From contig JANYKT010000089.1 of assembly GCA_025358085.1 (NCBI GenBank), positions 1-63,959 of the forward strand: DNA of 63,959 nucleotides, written 5' to 3'. This document shows positions 59,652 through 62,769 of the stretch, in pieces. A model generated the notes under the pieces. The model worked only from the letters and a program-made list of their open reading frames with translations, made no database searches and was not told the DNA's origin. This DNA comes from Deltaproteobacteria bacterium. GTDB taxonomy: Bacteria; Myxococcota; Myxococcia; Myxococcales; 40CM-4-68-19. Each line of letters begins with the position of its first letter. Positions within the stretch are counted from its first letter, which is position 1. A program made the position numbers and the translations under genes.

Positions 59652-61148
59652 CTAATGCGTCTCCGCTGCGGTCTTCACCGGCCCGGCTGGACCAGGCGTG
59701 GCCGGCGCTGCGGGCGGCGCCGGAGCGACCGGTGCCGGGATGAAGGCGATAGGTACGGACGGTTTGAAGCTCGGATCCCGCAGCGCGATCTGCCCTTGGC
59801 GAGAGAAGTTGATTGACTCGCCCAGAGTGCGGGCCGAAGCCTGCGGCGCGTGGAAGCCCGTGGAATTCTCCGCCTCGACGAAGTCCAGATAGAACTGGGC
59901 ACGGCGCTGCAGGTAACGGGGAGCAGCCAGCTCCGCGTCGCTCTTGCCTTCATCTCTTGCTTTTTTCAGATCGGTAATGAGCGCGACGAGCGCGTCCATG
60001 GCCTGATCGCGCAAAGCGTGGTGTCGATTCTGGATCGTCTCCACCCGGTCCTTGAGCTCGGTGTCCGACCACCGGTGGCAGCCCTGGCAGGCGCGATTGA
60101 TATTGAGGAGCGGACTCTGCACCTGGTGGTCCGAGATCTTGGTCGCTCCGACGCGCATATAGGGCATATGGCAGTCGGCGCAGGTCACGCCCGAGCGGGC
60201 GTGAATGCCCTGGCTCCAGGTCTCGAATTCGGGATGTTGCGCCTTGAGGACCGGCGCGCCGGTGTCCTTATGCACCCAATCCTTAAAGCCAATCTCGTCG
60301 TAGTAGGCCATGATCTTCTCGACCTCGAGGCCCTTTGACCACGGGTACACGAGACGCTTCTCGGGACCTTTGAAGAAATACTCAACGTGACACTGGCCGC
60401 AGACGAAGGCGCGCATCTCCTGCCGGGTCGCCATTGCATTCGGGTCATAGTCCTTGATGCCCTGCGAAGCCTTGAGAGCCTTGATGCCTTCGAGAAACCC
60501 GGGCTTCGTCACCCGCAGCGCCATGGTCTTCGGGTCGTGGCAATCGATGCAGGCGACCGGGTGTTTGACGAGCTTGGCCGCCTCGGTCCAAGGCATTTGA
60601 TTCATCTTCTCAAATCCCTTGATCAGGTCGCCGTCGCCCAGCTTGCGATAGGCGGTCCAGGTGGAGGCGTGGCATTGCATGCAGGTCCCGGGCTGCTTCA
60701 CCACCTGCTGGCGCTTGGTATAAGTCTGATCCTCGAGCACATAGGCGTGGCCGCGCCGCTCGCGGAAGTCCGTCGCGAAGGCGTACCCCGCCCATATGGT
60801 CTTGAGTCTCGGGTCGGCGTCGATCTTCGAGCGCGAAACCTTCTCTCGCGGGTCGTCGGTCGTTGGTATGCGTGGCATTGCCTCGCTCCCGCCATAGCGG
60901 GTCTTGGTCATCTCGACCGTCTTCTTCCAGGTATCGTATTCAAGCGGGAAATCCTGGCCCCACGCGGCGGGGTCGTCGACATTCTCATTCAGCTCGACCA
61001 CGCGGACCGAGGGCGTCTTCGCCTCCTGCTTATGGGTCGCAATGTTGGCAACCAGCGAGACTCCGAGGACGGCCACCAAGGCGAAGGCGACGGCCAGCGC
61101 GACGAGCAGGATTGAGCGCGGAGGCTTCTGATGAGTTGGTTCGGTCAT
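59652..61148 (-). CDS. nrfA: Cytochrome c nitrite reductase, catalytic subunit
   Basis: Periplasmic pentahaem enzyme (498 residues) reducing nitrite to ammonium in anaerobic respiration. A membrane signal helix (about 12-34) is followed by five haem sites: Cys156 CMQCH, Cys200 CIDCH, Cys250 CGQCH, Cys323 CADCH and Cys354 CQGCH. The first is normally CxxCK in enterobacterial NrfA; here it is CxxCH, as in a subset of other lineages. Active-site context CGQCHVEYFF and AQHPEFE is conserved. The C-terminal 30 residues are a Pro/Ala extension. It follows nrfH at 15 bp. Confidence 0.95.
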   Translation of the reverse strand: MTEPTHQKPPRSILLVALAVAFALVAVLGVSLVANIATHKQEAKTPSVRVVELNENVDDPAAWGQDFPLEYDTWKKTVEMTKTRYGGSEAMPRIPTTDDPREKVSRSKIDADPRLKTIWAGYAFATDFRERRGHAYVLEDQTYTKRQQVVKQPGTCMQCHASTWTAYRKLGDGDLIKGFEKMNQMPWTEAAKLVKHPVACIDCHDPKTMALRVTKPGFLEGIKALKASQGIKDYDPNAMATRQEMRAFVCGQCHVEYFFKGPEKRLVYPWSKGLEVEKIMAYYDEIGFKDWVHKDTGAPVLKAQHPEFETWSQGIHARSGVTCADCHMPYMRVGATKISDHQVQSPLLNINRACQGCHRWSDTELKDRVETIQNRHHALRDQAMDALVALITDLKKARDEGKSDAELAAPRYLQRRAQFYLDFVEAENSTGFHAPQASARTLGESINFSRQGQIALRDPSFKPSVPIAFIPAPVAPAPPAAPATPGPAGPVKTAAETH

Positions 61149-61163
61149 TTGCGTGTTCTCCCG

Positions 61164-61628
61164 CTACCGGAGGTGACCTACGGAGGCGTGACAGCGGATG
61201 CAGTCGAGTGCGTCGCCGTCTGCGGCTGGACCGCTCATGTTTTGAGCGACCTGAGCGTGGCAGCGTTTGCATTGGTCGTTCACGACCTTGAGGCTCGCGG
61301 GTCGAGCGCGGATGTTGTCGGGGTATCCGCCCAGCGTGAATGCCATCGAGTGATGGAAACCGTTTTCGGCCTTCACCAGATACTTGGCGATCGGGCTTGC
61401 CGGCGTATGGCAATCATTGCAGACCGCCGCAAAGTGGTGGGTTGACTGCCTCCACGCGTCGTAATGGCCTTGCATGACGTGACAATTGGCGCAGGCGGCA
61501 GGATCGTTCGTCAGATAAGACGCGCCTTGCGCATAGATGAAGGCGTAGCCCGAGACCCCGACCGCGAGTCCCACCGCGGCGGTGATGCCGAGGACGGGGA
61601 TGGTGGCAATGCCGTGGGCTCGACGCAT
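61164..61628 (-). CDS. nrfH: Cytochrome c nitrite reductase membrane subunit (quinol oxidase)
   Basis: Tetrahaem NapC/NirT-family protein (154 residues) that anchors NrfA and feeds it electrons from menaquinol. A single N-terminal membrane helix (about 8-30) is followed by CANCH, CNDCH, CKRCH and CIRCH. Length is typical. The ATG at 61628 is preferred (AGGG seven bases upstream); longer reading adds an Arg-rich stretch with no support. Transcribed ahead of nrfA, with a 250-bp upstream gap where no FNR-like site could be seen. Confidence 0.95.
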   Translation of the reverse strand: MRRAHGIATIPVLGITAAVGLAVGVSGYAFIYAQGASYLTNDPAACANCHVMQGHYDAWRQSTHHFAAVCNDCHTPASPIAKYLVKAENGFHHSMAFTLGGYPDNIRARPASLKVVNDQCKRCHAQVAQNMSGPAADGDALDCIRCHASVGHLR

Positions 61629-61878: not shown

Positions 61879-62769
61879 ATGAACTCTGGATATATTTTTC
61901 GAGAAGTCCTTCCCAAGGGGGCGGACGGCCAGCCGCTGATTGAATGGCTCGCGGGCCGCTACCGTCACTCGAGCGCCGCGACGTGGGCCGAGCGCATCCG
62001 GCTGGGCGAGGTGCTGGTCAACGGCGCGCGACCCGAAGTGCATCAATCCCTCAAGCGCGGACAAAGTGTCGAATGGCACCGGCCACCCTGGACCGAGCCG
62101 GAGGTCGACACGCATTTCACCGTGCTCTTCGAGGACCAGGACCTGCTCGCCGTCGCGAAGCCGCGCGGCCTCCCCACCCTGCCCGGAGGCGGTGAGTTTC
62201 TCGACAACACTCTTCTCTCCCTGGTGCGGCGCGATTGGCCCGAGGCGTCCCCCATGCATCGGCTGGGGCGCAGCACCACTGGAATCGTTCTCTTTGCGCT
62301 GACGCCGCACGCCCGGAATGCGGTGCAAAAGGCGTGGAGGACGGGAGGCGTGCGCAAGACCTATCGCGCGCGGGCGCTGGGCGCGCCCCCGGACCGGTTG
62401 ACGATCGACACGCCGATTGGGCCGATTGCACATCCGCTGCTCGGAACCGTGCATGCGGCGAGCGCGCAGGGAAAAGCTTCTTGCAGCGAGGCGCGGCTGC
62501 TCGAACGACGCGAAGGCTGCGCGTTGCTCGAGGTGACCATCGGGACCGGCCGGCCGCACCAGATCCGGATTCACCTCGCAGCGGCGGGCTTTCCGCTGGT
62601 CGGCGACCCTCTGTATGCGGCCGGCGGCGCGGTCATGGCGACCGCGGTGCCGGGCGACGCGGGATATTTCCTGCACGCCTGGCGGCTCGCGCTTGAGCAT
62701 CCGACGACGCTTGCACCGCTCGAATTGGTCGCGCCCCCGCCCGCCGAGTTGCTGCGCGAAGGCGAATAG
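61879..62769 (+). CDS. RluA-family pseudouridine synthase with altered catalytic motif
   Basis: A 296-residue protein with an S4-like N-terminal RNA-binding part (WAERIRLGEVLVNGARPE) and the RluA catalytic domain: LLAVAKPRGLPTLPGGG, then HRLGRSTTGIVLF, and TGRPHQIRIHLAAAGFPLVGDPLY near the end. In canonical RluA/RluC/RluD the motif is HRLD, whose Asp is the nucleophile for uridine isomerisation; here that position is Gly130. Either the protein is inactive or belongs to an RluA branch with a different arrangement. Start ATG at 61879 with no good ribosome-binding site. Confidence 0.85.
   Translation: MNSGYIFREVLPKGADGQPLIEWLAGRYRHSSAATWAERIRLGEVLVNGARPEVHQSLKRGQSVEWHRPPWTEPEVDTHFTVLFEDQDLLAVAKPRGLPTLPGGGEFLDNTLLSLVRRDWPEASPMHRLGRSTTGIVLFALTPHARNAVQKAWRTGGVRKTYRARALGAPPDRLTIDTPIGPIAHPLLGTVHAASAQGKASCSEARLLERREGCALLEVTIGTGRPHQIRIHLAAAGFPLVGDPLYAAGGAVMATAVPGDAGYFLHAWRLALEHPTTLAPLELVAPPPAELLREGE

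Follow-up and report, generated by a model that had tools for sequence, protein, structure and literature searches.

A gene in the 63,959-nucleotide stretch of myxococcotal DNA analysed here (the window) raises the question of what a protein of the RluA pseudouridine synthase family does once its catalytic aspartate is gone. The coding sequence, on the forward strand from the ATG at 61879 to the stop at 62769, encodes a protein of 296 amino acids (P0001) whose translated motif II, residues 127–135 at 62257–62283 on the same strand, reads HRLGRSTTG in place of the canonical HRLDxxTSG. In the clade and canonical alignments, the GGG codon of Gly130 (62266–62268, forward strand) stands at the site of the catalytic Asp, Asp64 in RluA. 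The original prediction was that Gly replaces this Asp among otherwise normal flanking motifs, leaving either an RNA-binding relic or a branch with a displaced Asp, unless the base calls were wrong.

P0001 is recognizable as an RluA-family protein. It matches PF00849 in Pfam over residues 88–235 (79.9 bits against a cut-off of 26.8), scores slightly below the cut-off of 192.7 for TIGR00005, the NCBIfam RluA subfamily (184 bits, E = 3.9e-54), and by sequence comparison is nearest, among solved sequences, to RluD-, RluA- and RluC-type proteins. An AlphaFold2 model made with 60 alignment rows (pLDDT 95.5, pTM 0.87) has the RluA-type fold, its predicted catalytic part spanning residues ~76–296. 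The top solved match to this model is RluA (2i82_A; Z 26.5, rmsd 1.9, 202 residues aligned), and RluC and RluD match at Z 24–26, including full-length RluD (2ist) over 277 amino acids with an rmsd of 6.9. The N-terminal region, residues ~1–75, aligns with the N-terminal part of RluD and would be S4-like, although Pfam returned no S4 match in P0001. Nearly full-length P0001 also matched three chains of trypanosomatid mitoribosome assembly intermediates (7aoi_XP, 6yxx_EC and 7am2_BZ; Z 19–20) at 18–19% identity and rmsd above 13, which implies no membership; the entry titles indicate that an RluA fold can be part of an assembly particle.

The source genome encodes nine PF00849 proteins, comprising P0001, seven HRLD RluA-type paralogs and one RsuA-like protein. 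As a check on whether the gene stands in for a canonical paralog, related genomes were compared, and eight matches each were found in one without the clade gene (G003) and in one with it (G006, only 88% complete). Directly downstream of the gene and convergent with it lies folD (PF00763 and PF02882; 62818–63690, reverse strand). Upstream, at 59655–61625 on the reverse strand, a cytochrome c552 of the NrfA type (PF02335) sits beside a cytochrome of the NapC/NirT type (PF03264); the two are probably a pair for nitrite ammonification. Crude clustering of open reading frames in the flanks of 80 scan loci, L010 and the window found no common neighbour gene in more than nine loci, a result in which weak conservation could be missed, as the clustering picked up the HRLG gene in only 64 of the 82 sources. 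The neighbour clusters displayed were mostly from Holophagaceae, and one 12-locus cluster was the antisense frame of the HRLG gene itself.

The Gly is shared widely. All 30 best loci in relatives of the source genome, the window locus included, carry HRLG, and at least 80 loci were recovered by a pattern scan of public genomes. The two patterns of that scan contained GDP and PGDxGYxLHA, respectively, and it favours Asp at positions 243 and 260; it would miss relatives with GE, such as L245, and HRLD forms are therefore under-counted. Rows from the searches of relatives, of the phylum, of Acidobacteriota, of Cyanobacteriota and of the class of genome G428 were found by whole-protein or profile search, with profiles A2 and A3 built from HRLG rows only. 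Within the phylum of the window, 67 of 195 genomes hold the clade gene (matches of at least 379 bits, the next match scoring 196), and motif II has Gly in 66 of them and Asp in one (G186, locus L165). Sampled Acidobacteriota, the phylum of the genome with L082, gave matches at E ≤ 1e-60 in 56 of 247 genomes, of which one (L248 in G398) was set aside as a paralog; the remaining 55 comprise 53 with Gly, three of them as HRIG, and two with Asp. Sampled Cyanobacteriota, the phylum of the genome with L100, gave matches at E ≤ 1e-58 in 39 of 244 genomes, and after one paralog (L301) was set aside, all 38 have Gly, one being a partial match. Both excluded proteins are HRLD (L248, 215 bits; L301, 200 bits), were judged paralogs and do not enter the clade counts. 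Two further HRLD rows, L304 and L306, came from the class of G428, which is also that of the Geothrix rubra genome G195, where 30 of 62 matches were read. By record label, the rows in the tree of HRLG and canonical proteins described below belong to Acidobacteriota, Myxococcota, Cyanobacteriota, Planctomycetota, Thermodesulfobacteriota, Latescibacterota, Nitrospirota, Elusimicrobiota, Pseudomonadota and Bacteroidota, with several of these phyla represented by one or two possibly mis-binned metagenome bins.

Some loci stand apart. One Acidobacteriota genome has a second, partial HRLG match ~0.9 kb from the first (L247, G387:C34:32477-33007). A cyanobacterial HRLG gene on a metagenome contig (L063) is interrupted by an in-frame stop near residue 23, a sequencing error or a pseudogene. 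Loci L189–L196 have LGDxGY in place of PGDxGY and retain Gly130 and D260.

Counts across the clade rest on 239 rows distinct over residues 25–269, left after merging 22 identical rows among 261 aligned. At position 130, 233 have Gly, five have Asp and one, the fragment L063, has no letter; clustering at 90% identity leaves 194 Gly, five Asp and one without a letter in 200 clusters. Alignment with 38 canonical RluA-family rows, from which three of 30 fetched loci with P0001 or an RsuA-like protein as best match (L165, L167 and L175) had been excluded, gave Asp130 in 38 of 38. The predicted replacement of Asp by Gly is thus borne out, and the sharing of HRLG that was to be checked by alignment extends to nearly the whole clade.

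Around the missing Asp, much of the pocket is kept. The active site of RluA has been listed, citing the RluA–RNA structure, as H61, R62, L63, D64, K94, Y96, H162, R165, L193 and L195 (PMC4434415). Arg128 (62260–62262, forward strand), equivalent to the base-flipping R62 of RluA, is present in 238 of 239 rows, the other being a fragment without a letter. Tyr162 (62362–62364, forward strand; RluA Y96) and Arg230 of the TGRPHQIR motif (62566–62568, forward strand; RluA R165) are each found in 237 rows, with two lacking letters, and Leu265 in 236, with three lacking letters; all four are invariant wherever the clade rows have letters. RluA, RluC, RluD and TruC share with P0001 the PF00849 domain, H127, R128, L129, K160, Y162, R230, L265 and the GD motif. 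Glu73 of the RPPWxE motif (62095–62097, forward strand) is a clade-special invariant acid, found in 237 rows (two without letters), the five HRLD relatives included, and in only six of the 38 canonical rows.

Elsewhere the site is rebuilt, and the expectation of normal flanking motifs holds for Arg128, Tyr162, Arg230 and Leu265 but fails just before the LHA segment. There, in the remodelled D260-A-G262-Y263 segment (62656–62667, forward strand), P0001 has Gly for RluA R192 and Tyr for RluA L193, together with an acid at 260, and it differs from the synthases further in its RPPWxE and PGDxGY motifs. Gly262 is found in 233 of 236 clade rows with letters and in all 231 HRLG rows with letters, against Arg262 in 37 of 38 canonical rows. 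Position 263 is Tyr in 229 rows, Phe in six and Leu in one, with Tyr in 228 of 231 HRLG rows and in none of the 38 canonical rows; its association with position 130 has a Fisher p of ~1e-6 over the 261 aligned rows, relatedness ignored. Position 260 is Asp in 210 of the 239 rows, Glu in 16 and another residue in ten, with three lacking letters. Among HRLG rows it is acidic in 223 of 231, two more having no letter, and the eight exceptions (three Ala, two Asn and one each of Ser, Thr and Gln) are from Acidobacteriota and Cyanobacteriota; a single canonical row of the 38 has an acid there. Where the Asp was lost, then, the canonical Arg262 also gave way to Gly, position 263 became Tyr and position 260 is usually acidic. 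Because RluA L193 aligns with position 263, Tyr263 should lie in the active site as listed in PMC4434415.

By the same list and alignment, RluA H162 corresponds to position 227, so this active-site His is not kept throughout the clade: it is His in 192 rows, Glu in 34 and Gln in 11, with two lacking letters, and is thus replaced in 45 of 237 rows with letters, against His in all 38 canonical rows. To judge from the sequences, replacement of the motif III His is a second loss within the pocket of clade proteins. The motif reads TGRPEQIRIH, with Glu for the His, in L013, L014, L022 and other loci of one family (f4), probably Myxococcaceae.

The HRLG genes are under purifying selection, with a median dN/dS of 0.176 (range 0.092–0.288) in 88 of 91 pairs with dS between 0.05 and 1.5, the pairs not being independent. 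The set comprised fourteen rows from thirteen genomes of one genus-level group, L034 and L143 being the same gene of one genome.

Phylogenetic analysis separated the family from canonical enzymes. In a tree made before the HRLD relatives were added, a single branch with support of 100/100 divides the 60 HRLG rows from 11 canonical rows. This alignment (A3) held the window protein, 54 of the 80 listed scan loci and five phylum loci, and left out L063 for its in-frame stop, L090 and L097 for insertions, and others to thin close relatives. Trees with the HRLD relatives used thinned sets of 58 and 43 rows. Four of these relatives, L245, L246, L304 and L306, form one clade (100/99) and share a PWxE or SWxE motif, HRLD, Glu243 and Phe263, with residues 260 and 262 being K and K, A and N, E and D, and E and G, respectively. 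One tree places L245 and L246 as the sister group of L165 and the full set of HRLG rows (91/91), and the same split with all four has support of only 76/84. The four relatives, from the class that includes Geothrix rubra, are likely active comparators for the HRLG family.

The fifth HRLD relative, L165 (G186:C199), has PGDIGY and GEP, with Glu243, D260, G262 and Y263, and its long branch falls among the HRLG rows (support 91/96 and 80/91). An apparent return to Asp is the favoured reading, with borderline constraint tests: p-AU was 0.055 for L165 placed in the basal HRLD clade and 0.050 for a branch with every HRLG row on the same side. The clade gene is present in only one of 16 genomes of its class, and L165 may reflect a natural reversion to the catalytic Asp, or else gene transfer or mis-binning. 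The likely order of events is a RPPWxE branch with HRLD, followed by HRLG with PGDxGY and perhaps by one return to Asp. Our own results on conservation, grouping, predicted fold, coupled active-site changes and purifying selection place P0001 in an ancient, widespread and conserved RluA-fold subfamily, marked by HRLG and PGDxGYxLHA, in which the change of Asp to Gly came with a rebuilding of the active site.

For the function of this subfamily we favour a binding role over relocated catalysis. Our leading reading, at a probability of about 0.5, is that P0001 binds RNA and flips out a base but has ceased to isomerise uridine by the known route; its RNA binding, base flipping, inactivity and biological role are what we infer. 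P0001 would still grip a structured RNA, Arg128 would displace a uridine or a similar base from the helix, and a pocket of Tyr162, Arg230 and Leu265, as their conservation suggests, would hold the flipped base. Gly130 retains a backbone amide, the counterpart of the one that bonds substrate O4 in reported complexes, and Tyr263 would occupy part of the pocket. With the carboxylate absent, isomerisation by the known route would not occur and the work of the protein would be binding, perhaps as a folding or assembly factor for rRNA or tRNA, or as a reader.

This reading draws on published work on active enzymes. TruA, TruB, RluA and RsuA lose their activity when the Asp is mutated; the HRL Arg is required and performs the base flip, the Tyr contributes without being indispensable, and every complex reported by 2013 has a bond between substrate O4 and the Asp backbone amide (all as described in PMC3919597). 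With the HRL Arg, the Tyr, the Arg of motif III and a backbone amide all in place, an HRLG protein can probably flip and hold a uridine. Human RPUSD3, with Asp to Gly in another RluA lineage, is described as having no noticeable activity on rRNA or tRNA (PMC12716993). Together with these sources, Gly130 beside invariant R128, Y162, R230 and L265, the grouping, the dN/dS values, the fold and the replacement of His227 support a binder. Against it, the strictly kept catalytic Tyr and Arg seem to exceed what a mere RNA binder would need, the acid at 260 goes with loss of the Asp, and L165, nesting with its Asp among HRLG rows, hints at a pocket that may have stayed competent. E. coli RluC D144A is reported not to support ribosome assembly (PMC11194073), so inactivity alone does not make a synthase useful in assembly.

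Less probably, P0001 may be an active pseudouridine synthase with a relocated carboxylate, in which D/E260, Glu73 or D243 replaces Asp130, Tyr263 rebuilds the pocket and forms with both Asp130 and an acid at 260 represent the intermediate. Retention of R128, Y162, R230 and L265 in every clade row with letters would fit such an enzyme, as would the clade-special acid at 260 and Tyr263. Two-acid forms do exist, since the HRLD relatives L165, L304 and L306 also have an acid at 260, but L245 and L246 have Lys and Ala there, and the eight HRLG rows with Ala, Asn, Ser, Thr or Gln weaken the case for D260 as a strict substitute. Every clade row with letters has Glu73, yet its equal presence in the five HRLD relatives is not replacement-like and weakens it too. 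Asp243 of the GDP motif (62605–62607, forward strand) is Asp in 230 rows and Glu in seven, with two lacking letters; Glu243 goes with Asp130 in five of five rows and with Gly130 in two of 232, but D243 is invariant in canonical enzymes as well. The displaced Asp of the original prediction may survive as an acid at 260 typical of the remodelled clade, but is undercut by the HRLG rows that lack one and by Glu73 in the HRLD relatives. That the family is a synthase branch without the motif II Asp, having passed through a two-acid intermediate to an acid on the LHA strand (D/E260, with Tyr263) or to Glu73, is a shade more doubtful; if true, the ‘universal’ nucleophile would not be universal.

It is unlikely that P0001 is an enzyme that uses the RluA pocket for another reaction or substrate, be it a different or modified base, or the recognition of pseudouridine. 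Coupled changes at 130, 262, 263 and 260, instead of a single-residue loss, would suit this possibility, as would the absence of the motif III His from 45 of 237 rows, but no gene neighbour points to another reaction in the crude clustering, and we know of no precedent for a different reaction in the RluA fold. We reject a decaying relic, mis-assembly or base-call error as very improbable, for nothing but the missing Asp itself speaks for it, against the same Gly in 233 of 239 distinct rows, independent genomes and purifying selection, and GGG is two base changes from an Asp codon. Of the relic originally proposed, an RNA binder without isomerase activity is the part that endures as the likeliest reading, and the decaying gene is contradicted by the median dN/dS of 0.18, the invariant pocket residues and a spread over some ten phyla.

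The same change of HRLD to HRLG has been described in eukaryotes. Plant RluA variants of the XXHRLG type (AtRLUA7, which is AT3G52260, and ZmRLUA7) occur from alga to spermatophyte, are probably without isomerase activity and are stated to be absent from organisms other than plants (PMC8910892). The bacterial HRLG family, Cyanobacteriota included, contradicts that plant-only statement of PMC8910892. The supposition of an HRLG branch in common with plant proteins is upheld as a likeness by motif, the plant side being taken from the same paper. RPUSD3, compared here by its description, likewise has Gly for the catalytic Asp; it is described as a vertebrate close homologue of RPUSD4 (PMC12716993), and its loss of the Asp is probably separate from that of the bacterial clade. 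Literature searches, with subscription papers mostly outside their reach, found no paper on a bacterial HRLG family. The Arabidopsis AT3G52260 protein presumably also has a PGDxGY-like motif.

In Myxococcota, Acidobacteriota and Cyanobacteriota, the HRLG family lost the Asp long ago and kept most of the pocket, and a few relatives still or again have the Asp. This natural Asp/Gly series offers a test of the role of the Asp and of whether the fold works without it, and the bacterial HRLG proteins are tractable counterparts of those in plants. The family either has a function other than pseudouridine formation or makes pseudouridine by a novel route. Automatic annotation of HRLG genes as synthases calls for caution.
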